The notes under the pieces were generated by a model that worked only from the letters and a program-made list of their open reading frames with translations, did no database searches and was not told the origin of the DNA. Made by a program: the position numbers and the translations under genes. Below, piece after piece: positions 54,061-62,606 of a stretch of 64,000 nt of DNA; the first letter of the stretch is position 1, and every line of letters begins with the position of its first letter. This DNA is from Arbacia lixula (Eukaryota > Echinodermata > Echinoidea > Arbacioida > Arbaciidae). The DNA is taken from NCBI GenBank assembly GCA_963669155.1, contig OZ022576.1:5179322-5243321 (forward strand), in the 5' to 3' direction.

Positions 54061-56495
54061 ATATTCTAGTGCATTAAGAATAGCGCCATTTTTGATCAAG
54101 CGCAGGCTCATTATTCATTATAATAATTTATATTACGTTTTAGATTTAAAACAAATATGTCACAACAGATCAGCAAAAACTAAATAAAATAATTACGAGT
54201 GAAATATTTTATTTATTAAATTTATATCACAAATGTAGGTTTTGGTAATATTATGATTTATTTATCTCTCTATGGTGACTCACTTAAAGGGAGTTGTCAC
54301 CCTAATAATAAGTTGCTTTCAAAAGAAAGCAAAGTCATCCATGAAACAAGTCAATGAAAATGTAAACGGAATAGGACAAGAAGTAAACAAAACATATACA
54401 AAAATTAGCCAATAGCCGTTTGTAATTTGCTCCTCTTTAAATTAACAAAACATGTGGCAGCCAGAGAATAATTCTCAGCCGGTTGGGCATCCCTCGCCTT
54501 ATAGGCCTCCATGGTAATCACCTCTCCCATAATTCATATAGCATTGATATATAGGTAAGGGTGTACTTTCCTTTAAAAAAAAAGTGCTAAAGGTCTAGAT
54601 GATTTACTCGGCTTTGATGAAGTTTTCAAGGAGAAAATATGAAAAGAAAGGACACATTTCGCACTCTTAAAAACAATACAACGAAGATCCAAAAACTAAG
54701 GGCAGTTTTCAATTACTTTTCACGACACCATAGTTGTTGTTTTTTTGTTTGTTTTTTTACATTTTGCCAATAAAAATAATTTTTTAAAATAATTTTGTTC
54801 TTGCCCGTCGTTTTTGCTATTTCCCTCTCTTATCGTTCTGCTTTAGACATGCATATAAGGCCTATCGTCCCTTTAAAATTAAAGGGATATTCCATCTTGA
54901 AATTAAGTTGGTTTTAATAAAAGCAGAAACATGAAAGAAACATTTAAGTGAGGGTTTGATTAAAATCCGTCAAAGGTTAAGAAAGTTATGATCTTCTAAA
55001 GTTGTGATTTTGTGACGTCACGTCGAGGTGCTCTCTCGTTACGATATGTAAGGTACATTTTTTGGAACATTCATTTTCTCAAAAGGATTTGCATCATTTT
55101 ACTTGTGCATTATTTTGATAAATCATTAGAAACAAGTTTTTGCACACATACCTCTTTGAAAAAAAAATATATTCCTTCATTAACAGAGGAAAAGAGCAAT
55201 TACAGTATATACAACAACAAAAAAAGTTGTCCAAAAGTATAAATCTCATGAATGTTCACAGGACTTGTAAGAATGATAATTGATAAAATGTCATGAAACC
55301 TACTTCGGAAATAAAATAACAACCTTTGACGTCAAGGTGTGTCGATTTCAGCTTGATTCAAATTGTAGGCCTAACGTATTTTTGATTATTTTTCACAAAT
55401 GTGTTTCTCCACTCACCAACATTGTTTTCCTGAAATTAACGGTTCAGGGATGTGCAGTTATAAACAAAAATGTATATTCTCATTTTGACACCTTTTTACT
55501 TATTTTTGAACACATTTTTTTTTCTCCATAATACTCGGATTTAGTAGGCCTACGGAGTCATAAACATTGAATTGAATATGCCAATACATGATCATATTTA
55601 CCGTATCAAAAACATTTATTTGGCCACAGGCCTATCATTAAAAATAGGGGTTTTTTTTAGTGAACGGAGGTTAAATGATAAAGTTAAGTACTCGATTAGA
55701 TTTGTTCTTTCATAACAGTTTCTATGCTGGATGCATTAAGGAAGATGGATAGGATAAATGCATTGTAATTCCATGTCTAAATACGTGTTATCTAAATACG
55801 ACCACTTGGAGACTCCCACCTTTATCCTAAAGGTTAGTATGTCAGACACATGGCTGCTCTATGGGGTTTCTATGTCTATGTATTGTGTAGAACTTAAAAT
55901 GGCACATAATGAGTTCAACGTACTGTCCTAGGCCTACACAGAACATCTTGGTCTAGAGAAAGTGCACATAGGCATTTAGGAGTGATGGCATAAATGACCT
56001 CTTTTCCCAACTATAGACCTATTTATTTGGGTGGGGGTTGCTATAAAACCTGTTAATATTGATATTGTAAACACTAAAGATTGGCTAAGATCTGGCTCGT
56101 ATTCACAAATCACAACGGTCGCTATCAATATACTATTTGGGGCCTCCAAATCTATAACAACGAAGAGTTTCTTTCCTCCAAAGTGAGAGGAGGACCCCCC
56201 CCCCCCACACACACACACAAACAACATATGGAGGCACGCAGCTGACGCACACGAGCATGCACACACACAACACAAAAGACACGGGTTTTTTTTAAATAAA
56301 ATATATTTCAAGTTGTAAAAGTTTACTCTAGTAAATGTCATTCAGGGACTAGCCTTATAAAATTTGAGAGTGGGCTATAACCTTGAGTGTAATAGGGGCT
56401 TATGGAAAGTGGGTCGTAAACTTGGAAACATGATTTTTGGCGGGGGAGTGGTAAATGGACTTATATCACATAATATTTTATGTTTTTAAATGTCA
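54061..56495. other. AT-rich intergenic DNA with repeat fragments
   Basis: No gene seen. Two short stretches begin with an AAAGGGA motif typical of a dispersed repeat: 54293-54580 and 54880-55070. The second shares AAGTTGGTTTT and AGAAACATGAAAGAAACAT with 62520-62606. A C-run plus CA microsatellite lies at 56195-56220. Confidence 0.6.
54880..55070 (+). repeat. Dispersed repeat, copy A
   Basis: Starts AAAGGGATATTCCATCTTGA, contains AGAAACATGAAAGAAACAT and TGTGACGTCACG. The first 85 bp recur at 62520-62606 in the same orientation. Confidence 0.65.
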
Positions 56496-56499
56496 GTAG

Positions 56500-57249
56500 T
56501 GTTACGATGAGTTCACGCCAGAAAGGATCGCACAAAATGATACCATTATTTAGTTTATGTGTTCTTTATTATATAGGGTATTTCCCCTTTAAAATCAAGA
56601 CAAACTTTCACAACTTTGTACAATGACTCTACATAAACATTAGAAATATATTTAAGCTTACAATACTGCAGGATACTTTGGCGAATGAATCCACGGCTCT
56701 CGTTGATGGTCCAGTTGATAATCCGATGCAGTATTCCAAATTATGATCGCAACGTTGATCCCAATGTTGTACGCTGAAGAACAGGTATTCCAGATAGTCA
56801 AGTCCAAATAGATGATCCAAGATGGTCAAATGTTATTCCACAGAGCTTTCACGGCTTTCACAGGCAGGATCTCATATTAAAAGCGCTATTTAACAGGCAG
56901 GTATTTATCATCCTAGAAGGTTCCATTAACTGTGCTTCCAGAAATTTCTCAATATATCCAGTAAGCTCTACATTGTACATATACCTATGCTTGTAAACAT
57001 GAAAATCAATATTGACCTGACCCAGATTACACTGATGAGTCATCACTAGCCCATCTGAGCTCTTTTATTATGCTAATGAGTCTCAGCTAGCTGTAACATT
57101 TTTTCATGTAAATAGCATTCCAGACTCTTCCAGGCAGTACATTGCGCAATGTTTATTTCACCAGTGAGGAATTTCACAAGCACACAGAGTGCAGCTCATT
57201 CAAGTGCTACATGTATGGCTATATGTATAACTTATACACATTTGTAACA
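56500..57249 (-). repeat. 3' LTR, 750 bp
   Basis: On the minus strand it runs from TGTTACAAATGTG (57249) to CATCGTAACA (56500), with perfect 6-bp inverted termini. It contains an AATAAA at 56570-56565, near the end, as expected for an LTR polyadenylation signal. Positions 56913-57249 match the other LTR without indels; 56500-56912 have no counterpart there. Confidence 0.85.
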
Positions 57250-57262
57250 CTTTCCCCCATGG
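57250..57262 (-). other. Polypurine tract of the retrotransposon
   Basis: The minus strand reads CCATGGGGGAAAG directly before the TGTTAC of the 3' LTR. This is the expected position and composition for the plus-strand DNA primer. Between it and the pol remnant (57263-57734) is about 470 bp of AT-rich internal sequence without ORFs. Confidence 0.8.
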
Positions 57263-57734
57263 AAAAAAAGAAAATTTTGCCGTAGCAAATTTTTCTTTTA
57301 CATTTTCAAACATTTAAAGTTACCTAAATAAAGATGTTCACCTTCTCTGCATTATGAACAATCATACTTTTATGTTTGAACACTTACAATATCATATTCC
57401 TAGGTCGTATTTATGACAACTCATAATTTAACCCTGACAACTTGTCTTGAGTATTTTGTTACTTTGAATTTCTTATTCAACCATTTTGATGACATGTATT
57501 ATCCATACAATAGTTTCTTCATTAACAAACAAATTTTTTCGATACCATAATCAACCGGCAAGGCACTTACTTGCACTGAATGTTTCCACATGAAAATAAA
57601 CTCCAAAAATCTTTTTGCCAAAGTCTTTTGGATATATGGCAATTTTCATTTGTCACCATACTGATTCTATAACATATTTACACATAATCACATACCTTGT
57701 GACAAAACTTATTACTTCTTTGTTGTGTTTTTTT

Positions 57735-58316
57735 TCACACTCTGGACAATGCATCAGCTATGACATTGTTTTTGCCTGATACATGCACAATTTTGAGGGC
57801 ATAGGGCTGGATCAGCAGACTCCACCTGAACATTCTACTGTTCTTGGTTTTGAACCGATCCAGGAAGACAAGGGGGTTGTGGTCTATGTACATGATTATC
57901 TCCCCTTTACTGTTTGTAAGATACACTTCAAACTGCTGAATGACAGGGATCAGACCGAATGCCTCCTTAGCCTTTTCCAACCGATATGGGTGTTTGATTG
58001 GCCTAGCATCCCCAACAACAACATCATGCACAGTCAGTGGGGTGCAACCTACTTTGTCTTTGCAAACGTCCCCAAATTCATGCAACAAATCAGTTACATC
58101 TTTTCTCTGATCTTCAGGGAGGTAACTCAACACTTCCTGTGTTTGCCCTAACATCTCCGTGTTAGACAACCTGACACTAGGTGGCTCACTCATGTTTACA
58201 TCCGATTCAGACATGTCCACATCTGATTCCACCACATCTACTTTATCATTTACCATGTGTATCACCCCAACTGGCTGGCTAGCCTCTCGCTCAAAGTATT
58301 CTTTGAGCATGCACAT
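57735..58316 (-). pseudogene. RT/RNase H remnant of the retrotransposon, RT core deleted
   Basis: The frame runs from the spacer after the integrase (LPEDQRKDVTDLLHEFGDVC, then PLTVHDVVVGD) to the segment that normally precedes RT (PIKHPYRL). It then passes at about 57975-57985 straight to RNase H sequence (YIDHNPLVFL, SGKNNVIADALSR). The RT palm with its Y-x-D-D motif is absent, as is the N-terminal part of RNase H. The junction keeps the reading frame. It is in a different frame from the integrase ORF, which it overlaps at 58262-58316. Confidence 0.88.
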
Positions 58317-60055
58317 GACACACCCTTTGATCTTTTCTCCCGAGTACCGATCACATAATTGACATCATTCAGTTTCTTCTTGACACAGTACGGTCCACTG
58401 AACTTGGCCTTTAACGGCTCACCCTGCAATGGTAGCAACACGAGTACTTTGTCACCAGGCTTGAAAGTACGCTCTTTAGCATGTTTGTCTGCTTTCTTCT
58501 TCATGCTTTCTTGGGACGTTTTCAGATGTCCCCTAGCTACCTCACATGCCTTAAACAGCCTTTCACGGAACTTTGACACGTAGTCAAGGAGGTTTACATC
58601 ATCATCCTGGGACATGAACCTCTCTTTTATGAGCTTAAGAGGGCCCCTCACCTCGTGACCGTACACCAACTCAAAAGGACTAAATCCCGTTGACTCATTC
58701 GGGGAGTCCCTAGTAGCAAACAACAAACATGGGATGCCCTTATCCCAGTCCTCGGGGTGCTCCTCACAATATGCCCTAATCATGGTTTTCAGGGTCTGAT
58801 GGTAGCGTTCTAATGCACCTTGAGATTGGGGATGGTAAGCTGACGACTTCAGCTGTTTGATACCCAACTGATGCATCACCTCTTGAAATATGTTCGACAT
58901 GAAATTGGATCCCTGGTCAGACTGAATTTCCTTGGGCAGACCATACCTAGTGAAAAACTGGACTAGGGCCTCTACCACAGTCTTGGCTGTAATATTTCTG
59001 AGTGGCATTGCTTCTGGGAAACGGGTAGACATATCCATGATTGTCAAGAGGAACCTATGACCTGACCTAGTTCTAGGCAAAGGGCCAACACAGTCAACTA
59101 GAACCCGAGTGAACGGTTCATCAAATGCGGGTATCGGAATCAATGGTGCCGGCTTGATCGACGGCTGTGGTTTACCAACCACCTGACATGTGTGACAAGT
59201 TTTACAAAACTCAGCCACATCTTGACTCAACTTCGGCCAATAGAAATGCCTCATGATTCGATCTTTTGTCTTTCTGACACCTAAATGGCCGCCAACAGGT
59301 AACTCGTGGGCAATTCTCAAAATCTCATTGCGATAACAGGGAGGGACAACAATTTGATGGACAACAGTCCAATCCTCATCAGCTGGCCTAAGGGGAGGTC
59401 TCCACTTCCTCATCAAAATGTCATCTTTGACATAATAGCACTCAGGGACATTAACAGCCTCAGCCTCAGAACACGCAGTCTGAGACAAGCCCTTTAATTC
59501 CATGTCTGCCTGTTGTGCCTGAACCAAGGAAGACTTACTAAACAGCTCACCACTGCTAGCCTCGGAGCCTAAAACAGCACCCCCTTCATTCAAATCCTTG
59601 AAAAAGGTTTCAGCCAACCAAACCCCAGTATTCTCCTCCACGTCAACACAATCCGCATCATCGTGCGCATCCCTACGAGCCTGAGACCTAGTAACAACAC
59701 AGGCTGGGAAAATTCCTGGTACTTCTTCCTGTAAGTTCTCAGTTTCCGGAACCTCAACTGGTTTTTCCAAAACCACAACACAATCCGGAAAAATCCCTGG
59801 GAACTTCACCTGTAACTTTTCAGCTTCAGTAACCACAACGGCCGGTTGCTCTGAAACACCTGGCGACGCAACAACCTTGTCGCCAGCCAAGTCATTACCC
59901 AGCAAACAATCTACACCCCGCATGGGCAACTCTGGGATGACTCCAACAGTAACAGGACCAGAAACTAGGTCACACTTCAAATCCACCTTATACAAGGGAA
60001 CGGTGACACAACTGCCAAAAATAGGCTGTATCAAAGCCTTGGCATTCAATTGCAC
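58262..60055 (-). CDS. Protease C-terminal part and integrase of the retrotransposon
   Basis: Open for 597 codons. The N-terminal 60 residues (LPMRGVDCLLGNDLAGDKV) are the end of an aspartic protease. About 150 acidic spacer residues follow. The integrase then has a zinc-binding region (HELPVGGHLG and CKTCHTC), the catalytic core with Asp in VLVDCVGPLP, Asp in IQSDQGSNF and Glu in QGALERYHQTLK, and a C-terminal GPY-type module (FSGPYCVKKK). The active-site residues are all present. The frame ends shortly after the GPY module by a frame change. Confidence 0.9.
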   Translation of the reverse strand: MQLNAKALIQPIFGSCVTVPLYKVDLKCDLVSGPVTVGVIPELPMRGVDCLLGNDLAGDKVVASPGVSEQPAVVVTEAEKLQVKFPGIFPDCVVVLEKPVEVPETENLQEEVPGIFPACVVTRSQARRDAHDDADCVDVEENTGVWLAETFFKDLNEGGAVLGSEASSGELFSKSSLVQAQQADMELKGLSQTACSEAEAVNVPECYYVKDDILMRKWRPPLRPADEDWTVVHQIVVPPCYRNEILRIAHELPVGGHLGVRKTKDRIMRHFYWPKLSQDVAEFCKTCHTCQVVGKPQPSIKPAPLIPIPAFDEPFTRVLVDCVGPLPRTRSGHRFLLTIMDMSTRFPEAMPLRNITAKTVVEALVQFFTRYGLPKEIQSDQGSNFMSNIFQEVMHQLGIKQLKSSAYHPQSQGALERYHQTLKTMIRAYCEEHPEDWDKGIPCLLFATRDSPNESTGFSPFELVYGHEVRGPLKLIKERFMSQDDDVNLLDYVSKFRERLFKACEVARGHLKTSQESMKKKADKHAKERTFKPGDKVLVLLPLQGEPLKAKFSGPYCVKKKLNDVNYVIGTREKRSKGVSCACSKNTLSERLASQLG

Positions 60056-60125
60056 TCTCTGGTGGCAAAGTCACACTACCTTCCACCAACAACGTCTGAT
60101 TGGACCCTGTATCCCTATACCACTG
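60056..60125 (-). pseudogene. Protease active-site segment of the retrotransposon
   Basis: The DTGS motif of an aspartic protease is encoded at about 60113-60102 in a frame different both from the gag ORF that ends at 60115 and from the frame that opens at 60055. A gag-pro frame change may be natural in such elements; the second one within the protease must be damage or a sequence error. Confidence 0.7.
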
Positions 60126-60723
60126 GCTTACCTGCCTCACCAGATGAACTAGGGGCCACTATTCCCTCAGACAAAAAGCTACGATATTTTTGATCAACCT
60201 GCGTAAGTTTATCGTCAAAATTGAACGGACGATTTTCAATGACCTGTCTATCTCTACCTGGGACACTATCTTCTGGGAGGACACTTTTTGGCATGACAAA
60301 CCCAACTTCTTTCTTTTCCTTATTTTGCAATTTCCAGCACTGGGCTTTTAAGTGCCCCTTCTTGTTACAATGAAAGCAAGTTGGAGGTGGTTTTGCCGTA
60401 CCTGAATTGGCAGACTGATTTTTGGATGCCGGATGTGAACCACTGCTAGTGTTGCCGCCTTTACTTTGCACATCTTTTGCTTGGCCAATACCCTTTTGTG
60501 CATCATTCTGATTTTTACCTCTATAACCAGAGAAATTTCGGAACAATGGTCTGTTATCATTCTTGTGAGTTAGCTCGTACTCATCAGCCATTTGAGCTGC
60601 TTTTTTCAGATCTGTGATTTTGTGATCATCTAGGTGGGATCTCACATTGGAGGCAACATTCTTTTTGAACTCCTCCAACAACACTACCTCTCTGAGGCTA
60701 TCAAAATCTTCCCCCACTTTCAA
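60115..60723 (-). pseudogene. gag C-terminal part with zinc knuckle
   Basis: 202 codons. It starts with the second half of the SCAN-like region (REVVLLEEFKKNVASNV and KKAAQMADEYEL). An Asn/Gln/Ser-rich linker follows, then the CCHC knuckle CFHCNKKGHLKAQC near 60336-60380 (C-x2-C-x4-H-x4-C). A stop codon precedes this part at about 60732, where the family has a Trp. Confidence 0.85.
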
Positions 60724-60769
60724 TGAACCATATCACCTATCAAACATCGTTTCCTTTTCACGAGCAAAC

Positions 60770-61402
60770 TCAATTAACATGTGTCTGACCTGGCTTGCGG
60801 CTTGTATTTCTGAATTTCTGTCTGTACGCCTCCGGTACCAATTCATATGCATTCAGTACTGCTTTCTTTACAGTAGCATAGTTACATGACTGTTCTGCTG
60901 AGAGAGATGAGTACATGTCTGCTGCTTTACCAACAAAAACACTTTGGAGAAGCACCGGCCAAAATTCTTGTGGCCATTTCATCGTACTAGCCACTTTCTC
61001 AAATGAGACAAAATATCTGTCAACTCTGTCCTCTTCAAATTTTGGCACCAAACGAACATTCTTTGCCACATCGAATGTATGGGACTTATTGTCTTGTGCA
61101 CGAGTCTGAGATAATTCAAGCTCACGCAATTTCATCTCCATTTCTAGTCTTCTCATTTCAATTTCTGCCTCTCGCTGTCTTTGTCTTTCTTCAGCTTCAG
61201 CTTCACGCTGTCTTTGTTCTCTTTCAGCTTCTCGCTGTCTTTGTTTTTCTTCAGCTTCAGCTTGTCGCTGTCTTTGTTCTCTTTCTCTCTCAAATTCCAT
61301 TTTAGCAAGCTCAAGTTGTGTTTGATCTGAACGACCCATTGCTTGGGCTTGTTCAACCGGTTGGGTTTGTTGTCTAACTGTCCTGTGACTAGCTACTATC
61401 AA
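60770..61402 (-). pseudogene. gag central part: coiled-coil and first half of SCAN-like region
   Basis: About 210 codons. A strongly charged Glu/Arg/Gln coiled-coil (repeats of QRQREAE) precedes a conserved region with FEKVASTMKWPQEFWPVLL and VKKAVLNAYELVPEAYRQ, like the gag and SCAN family. It ends at a frame change near 60770. It is out of frame with the N-terminal piece, with the change near 61400. Confidence 0.85.
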
Positions 61403-61547
61403 GTATCTCTGCCTTCTTCATACCCTGTGTCAAATCAACATTCAAATGTTGGGCAATAGCGATCAAATTACACTTTCTTAATCTTTCCAAATCTTTGTAG
61501 GACAAATCTGTCCTCTCGGCAAATGCCTTAGCATCGAAGGTACTCAT
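61389..61547 (-). pseudogene. gag N-terminal part
   Basis: ATG at 61547-61545, reading MSTFDAKAFAERTDLSYKD and on through KCNLIAIAQHLNV. It stops at 61389 after 52 codons because of a frame change about 15 codons-equivalent before the stop or less. This segment looks like a SAP-like helical motif (LRKCNLIAIAQHL); weak. Confidence 0.75.
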
Positions 61548-61798
61548 GATTGTACACAGTATACAACATACACAATCAACATATGTGAAAGCTTGTCTGT
61601 ATGTATTCTAGGATAGAGCAATCAAAGTTATGACCAAAATTTCAATGAATTTTGAACAATGTTGGCTCATTACCAATGTTCATCTCCCGGACAAGCCCCT
61701 GCAGGTTATCACAGGTACATGACTGGAGCTAGGATGACATGTTAAACTCTGAGGTCCTATATCCAAGTCACTCATATATATACTACAATCTGTACATT
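61548..61798 (-). other. Leader between 5' LTR and gag
   Basis: No ORF and no match to the other LTR. The primer-binding site should lie here but, because the 5' LTR is cut, I cannot identify it. Confidence 0.6.
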
Positions 61799-62135
61799 CT
61801 AGAAGGTTCCATTAACTGTGCTTCCAGAAATTTCTCAATATATCCAGTAAGCTCTACATTGTACATACACCTATGCTTGTAAACATGACAATCAATATTG
61901 ACCTGACCCAGATTACATTGATGAGTCATCACTAGCCCATCTGAGCTCCTTGATTATGTTAATGAGTCTCAGCTAGCTGTAACAGTTTTTCATGTAAATA
62001 GCATTCCAGACTCTTCCAGGCAGTACATTGCGCAATGTTTATTTCACCAGTGAGGAATTTCACAAGCACACAGAGTGCAGCTCATTCAAGAGCTACATGT
62101 ATGGCTATATGTATAACTTATACACATTTGTAACA
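61799..62135 (-). repeat. 5' LTR, truncated to 337 bp
   Basis: The minus strand begins TGTTACAAATGTG at 62135 and matches the 3' LTR for 337 bp with about 8 substitutions and no indels. It then stops at CTAGA (61799), which is shared by both sides. The remaining 413 bp of the 3' LTR, including its polyadenylation signal, are missing here. Confidence 0.87.
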
Positions 62136-62519
62136 GTAGTACATGTATAAACTAGCTCTGGTATTATATACATAGGTGTATATAATTTTATTATATATAT
62201 AATTTTATTATGTGTATTTTTCTTCTCCAGCGTTTCATTTAATTTGTTTGTCTTCACCTAGTAATCAGCGCCATCGCAACCTCTATTCTTCTTTTAGGTG
62301 TATATATATACATGTATACATATATATATATATATGGTTGTGTCATTTAATGGGTAACTATACTTTCTGGAGCTTTGTGAATGAAATATATAATTCTATA
62401 CAACATAAAACACAATTACATTATCTTGAAAGGAAGTGATAAGAAGGGTTAGTGTTGGTTACCGGGTAATTCCAATATTGTATGATTTAAACAAACAATT
62501 ACATTGCCTTGTCGACGTG

Positions 62520-62606
62520 TTGTGAAGTTAAAGGGATAGTCCACCCTGCCATTACCGGTAAGTTGGTTTTGATCAAAACAGAAACATGAAAGAAACATAT
62601 TAGTTT
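62520..62606 (+). repeat. Dispersed repeat, copy B (truncated)
   Basis: Starts TTAAAGGGATAGTCCACC and runs to AGAAACATGAAAGAAACAT, then diverges from the copy at 54880. Confidence 0.65.

Follow-up and report, generated by a model that had tools for sequence, protein, structure and literature searches.

Results

A degraded LTR retroelement with integrase upstream of RNase H

We analysed a 64,000-nucleotide stretch of the Arbacia lixula genome (assembly GCA_963669155.1, contig OZ022576.1, positions 5,179,322 to 5,243,321 of the forward strand; hereafter the window). Its minus strand carries a long terminal repeat (LTR) retroelement in which the integrase precedes RNase H and from which the reverse transcriptase (RT) has been lost. 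The reading we favour, with a probability of roughly 0.78, is that the locus is a degraded Gmr1-type Ty3/gypsy insertion (protease-integrase-RT-RNase H order) of an RT-less internal-deletion form, from a recently active family, that is mobilised in trans and recombines. The features of the element are given below in its own 5' to 3' direction, with open reading frame abbreviated to ORF.

56500-62135, minus strand: the whole LTR retroelement, a degraded copy with a CTAC target site duplication on either side
62136..62139, minus strand: target site duplication CTAC on the element's 5' side
61706..62135, minus strand: 5' LTR, truncated at its 3' end
61684..61699, minus strand: damaged remnant of the primer binding site, GGGGCTTGTCCGGGAG
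60770..61402, minus strand: first Gag ORF, with a Glu/Arg/Gln-rich tandem repeat (61163-61283); the gag ATG is at 61547 and the frame is interrupted
60115..60723, minus strand: second Gag ORF (end of the SCAN-like part, CCHC knuckle); a frame break lies between 60055 and 60115
58262..60055, minus strand: ORF of 597 aa with the C-terminal part of the protease, an acidic spacer and the whole integrase
about 59177-59347, minus strand: integrase zinc-binding domain (Pfam 4.8e-21)
about 58829-59116, minus strand: integrase catalytic core, rve (Pfam 1.1e-12)
inside ORF 58262..60055, minus strand: p58/GPY-like C-terminal integrase module
57735..58316, minus strand: ORF spanning the linker between integrase and RT, an RT N-terminal stub and the C-terminal RNase H half, in a different frame from the integrase ORF
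57966..57978, minus strand: junction of a deletion of ~1 kb, by which the RT core and the first RNase H half are gone
about 57801-57971, minus strand: Pfam match of the RNase H remnant, which ends in DALSRV (profile positions 51-105 of 105, 4.4e-8)
57250..57258, minus strand: polypurine tract GGGGGAAAG, abutting the 3' LTR
56500..57249, minus strand: 3' LTR (TGTTAC...GTAACA), 750 bp
56496..56499, minus strand: target site duplication CTAC on the element's 3' side, identical to 62136-62139

As the initial annotation had proposed, gag, protease, integrase and then RNase H follow one another on the minus strand within one element, and Pfam searches of the window ORFs bear this out. The same annotation placed both RT and RNase H after the integrase. 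The C-terminal half of RNase H is indeed there, but RT has gone with a deletion of ~1 kb that recurs in other copies, and none was found in the window copy by Pfam on its ORFs or by tblastn with pieces of a related copy, L013. The window Gag gives CCHC and SCAN matches, both under the Pfam gathering scores (SCAN PF02023, 4.1e-4). The interval originally assigned to the element, 57250-61547, runs from the edge of the polypurine tract (57250) to the gag ATG (61547) and is nearly exactly the internal region; the full element extends over 56500-62135.

The tandem repeat in the N-terminal part of Gag is imperfect, with units of 27-60 bp. BLAST alignments of several other copies are interrupted there, perhaps through a repeat number that varies between copies. 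Outside the element, a 46-bp repeat with 89% identity occurs at 54904-54949 and 62559-62604, ~7.7 kb apart, and is perhaps another dispersed repeat.

Integrase precedes RT in relatives across the genome

An integrase search of the 607 Mb genome returned 82 candidates, of which the 40 best by similarity to the window integrase were scored. Twenty of these were fetched with 9.5 kb, that is, in full (16 with RT, hereafter RT+, and 4 RT-less), another 19 as 1.55-kb pieces covering the RT region, and one was the window. The presence and order of RT were scored by tblastn with pieces of L013 as queries. In 29 of the 40 copies RT lay downstream of the integrase and was followed by RNase H, the pol order that had been anticipated for relatives. 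The RT match was absent from the other 11, all at the same junction (the window, L012, L024, L025, L028, L033, L034, L035, L041, L046 and L047). No RT match occurred elsewhere in the 16 RT+ copies with 9.5 kb; the other 13 were covered over 1.55 kb only. Gag-Pol was a single open frame, 1600-1630 aa from stop to stop, in 9/16 RT+ copies, and a single open frame of 1288-1290 aa was present in 3/4 of the RT-less copies fetched besides the window. The integrase scan of viral contigs found no relative.

The RT+ copy L013, read in pieces, encodes SCAN, CCHC, a DTG protease-like stretch, integrase, p58_C, RVT_1 with a YIDD motif, and RNase H. Its SCAN match was over the gathering score (PF02023, 9.7e-9), and integrase (2.5e-21), RVT_1 (1e-32) and RNase H (1.5e-33) were likewise recovered; the CCHC match fell below the cut-off and the protease-like stretch was recognised by eye. 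An acidic spacer is found in the window copy and likewise in the single RT+ copy read through the protease region. The further lineage that the initial annotation envisaged, marked by such a spacer, is a candidate reading. The closest solved structure to the pieces of one copy was that of yeast Ty3 (RT-RNase H 1.6e-83, integrase 7.8e-44), making Ty3 (7q5b, 4ol8) the nearest element with a solved RT-RNase H and integrase. Ty3 has RT and integrase in the opposite order, however: in 7q5b the RT-RNase H piece matches 619-1008 and the integrase piece 1085-1452. Ty3/gypsy-type enzymes in a copia-like pol order, as first suggested for this locus, are thus what the relatives contain. Integrase-RT-RNase H is the order of the intact relatives, not a product of nesting.

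The LTRs began with TGTTAC in 20/20 of the copies fetched in full and ended with GTAACA in all but L021, where the end was not set; the motif was itself used to place the ends. Mismatches between the two LTRs numbered 0-2 in 19/20 copies, with none in 9/20, and L021 showed 8 with its mis-set end. At positions 1-800 of the L021 sequence, the Gag part of what seems to be another, incomplete family member adjoins the full copy. Target duplications were of 4 bp in 16 of the 20, with a 5-bp match in two, poly-C flanks in one and one not set. The polypurine motif GGGGGAAAG occurred once, beside the 3' LTR, in 20/20. In other copies the primer binding site is TGGGGGCTTGTCCGGGA, about five bases past the LTR and presumably resembles tRNA-Pro. 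The window copy is more worn than these relatives: its LTR pair has 9 mismatches over 341 aligned bp, above the values in the fetched copies, and its 750-bp 3' LTR is shorter than their LTRs of 899-997 bp (excepting the 5' LTR of L025, placed at 1600 bp where its 3' partner has 899).

The RT-less form is distinctive mainly around its junction

The deletion fuses the N-terminal stub of RT with mid-RNase H sequence, and the two meet at a GAGG match. The reading frame is kept across the junction in 11/11 RT-less copies, with three lengths (101, 104 and 119 nt between anchors), and the tail is open through the RNase H C-terminus in all 11. The four RT-less copies fetched besides the window have LTR mismatches of 2/933, 1/997, 2/899 and 0/947, and are flanked by duplications of 4 bp in three and 5 bp in L025. 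Given these near-identical LTRs, the four copies were inserted already RT-less.

We compared the 11 RT-less with the 29 RT+ copies along the alignment. From ~80 columns upstream to ~100 downstream of the junction, divergence between the two groups was 0.05-0.25 in 20-column bins, against 0.02-0.03 just outside this stretch. Farther away, the between-group value fell within, or close to, the range set by the two within-group values, and the same held for 5 RT-less against 16 RT+ copies. Label permutation on the latter set gave p 0.0005 on either flank adjoining the junction. Towards RNase H, p was 0.005 at 60-150 columns and 0.57 beyond; towards the integrase it was 0.21 between 135 and 300 columns out and 0.06, with a net difference of 0.0009, past 300. 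At the junction the RT-less copies were diverse among themselves (up to 0.23) and the RT+ copies nearly uniform. In the untranslated 3' part, divergence between groups (5 versus 16) was 0.03-0.07, lower than at the junction, so the freedom of the RT stub from constraint in RT-less copies is alone insufficient to account for the junction values. Judged from these sequence comparisons, the alleles at the junction seem to predate the flanks they now carry.

Complete separation of the 11 from the 29 was found in 2 gap-free columns, or 10 if gaps are counted. At one position, column 413, a single base sets all 11 RT-less copies apart from all 29 RT+ copies. Linked changes are common to L024, L033, L046 and L047, and others to L012, L025, L028, L034 and L035, each group being made up of copies at different sites. 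Elsewhere the two forms intermingle: in gag, integrase and 3' untranslated region trees the RT-less copies are dispersed among RT+ copies, and the gag genes of RT-less copies are 2.0-5.7% apart from one another.

Discussion

The family matches the already described Gmr1 clade and would be a new member of it. This clade is reportedly treated by Goodwin and Poulter 2002 and in the Atlantic cod Gmr1 paper. We file the elements as Gmr1-like by architecture and Gag type because they combine the integrase-before-RT order with a SCAN-like Gag and a single Gag-Pol of similar length, three features by which the Gmr1 likeness proposed at the outset is supported; Ty3-type enzymes and LTRs that point to recent activity are further likenesses. 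In the literature, integrase ahead of RT is a hallmark of Gmr1 (PMC8220671, PMC3587641, PMC6238403, PMC2774666). Among frog elements, a SCAN domain turned up in more than half of those of Gmr type and in none of the other types (PMC4131045), and the SCAN of zinc-finger proteins is described as strikingly like the Gag of Gmr1-like elements (PMC4592553). Tetraodontiform Gmr1 has one Gag-Pol of 1634 aa, as against 1600-1630 aa in nine copies here, and, compared by description, Gmr1-4 of those fishes have LTRs of 337-518 bp, unlike the 899-997 bp in Arbacia (PMC11117352). The statement in the initial annotation that the Gmr1 order is known in deuterostomes was too narrow, as Gmr1-like elements have been reported from crustaceans (PMC3587641) and from an annelid (PMC8220671).

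Several points weigh against the favoured reading. The assignment to Gmr1 rests on architecture and Gag type. A TIHG protease motif has been mentioned for Gmr-1, as a remark with data not shown (PMC2577118), and does not serve as a definition in the other passages considered; it was not seen here, being absent by eye from the translation of one copy, which has DTGSNQTLL. The 11 RT-less copies are a lower bound, and since the 40 were ranked by likeness to an RT-less integrase, 11/40 is no unbiased frequency. The three trees were read without support values, and with 2 gap-free separating columns it is likely rather than proven that the deletion arose once. The recombination may instead be genomic gene conversion.

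The window copy, which has no RT and broken frames, might raise the suspicion that two elements, nested in or adjoining each other, only mimic an order of integrase before RNase H, but we give this next to no credence. RT and RNase H follow the integrase in 29/40 copies at other sites, and 9/16 full RT+ copies hold one open Gag-Pol of 1600-1630 aa. We rejected the nested reading because the order recurs in copies bearing their own LTRs and target site duplications. The two findings named beforehand as contradicting the proposed order were both absent: no scored relative showed RT upstream of integrase, over the stretches fetched, and nothing pointed to a second, nested element as the source of the RNase H.

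A more serious alternative, although an improbable one, is that several independent deletions between the short repeats GGGAGG / AAAGAGG gave rise to the RT-less copies, which in other respects would not stand out from the rest of the family. The short GAGG match at the break, the dispersal of RT-less among RT+ copies in the trees, the scarcity of fully separating gap-free columns and the junction diversity among RT-less copies would all fit recurrent deletion. Against it stand the identical break in 11/11, the linked changes that groups of RT-less copies at different sites have in common, the separation of all copies by column 413, and the matched LTRs of four copies, which indicate insertion as RT-less elements. 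Somewhat harder to set aside, if still unlikely in our view, is a single RT-less lineage whose flanks were homogenised by genomic gene conversion rather than by recombination during reverse transcription. The many near-identical copies in the genome would provide for such conversion; yet gag differs by 2.0-5.7% among RT-less copies while each of the four besides the window has matched LTRs, a combination expected if shuffling preceded integration.

For the favoured reading, that of an RT-less form mobilised in trans and recombining, we propose the following course. An old, single deletion of ~1 kb would have created the RT-less allele. Its RNA would be packaged with RT from full-length relatives, and would be copied and integrated in trans. 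Template switching with RT+ RNAs may then swap sequence between the forms and leave only the junction region distinctive. More tentatively, and at somewhat under even odds, the RT-less junction could be a long-lived parasitic allele in a living Gmr1 population. It would specify a polyprotein of Gag, protease and integrase, in frame and tailed by RNase H, receive RT in trans and persist by constant recombination, so that both forms would belong to a common gene pool and differ at a single locus.

Defective subfamilies beside an autonomous one on which they rely have been described for BARE2 and BARE1 in barley (PMC3735527) and for Angela in wheat (PMC9744471). These are plant copia elements, unlike the Arbacia element, and they are defective in other ways. 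BARE2 is unable to make Gag (PMC3735527) and non-autonomous Angela has degenerate coding sequence (PMC9744471), whereas here RT and RNase H sequence is lost and the Gag-protease-integrase frame is open in 3/4 RT-less copies. Among the Gmr1 literature matches listed, no title, to go by titles only, concerns an RT-less Gmr1 family. The gene order has been described before and calls for no fresh account, and because non-autonomous LTR elements with autonomous partners are already known, the RT-less form is a nice case but no new principle. If the more tentative reading, that of a parasitic allele, is true, RT would be shared among elements, with Gag and integrase still encoded by each. A recombining RT-less form, if real, would serve as a natural experiment on the retrotransposon proteins that are shareable and on the frequency of recombination between co-packaged RNAs, because a single deletion tags the parasitic allele and many young copies exist.

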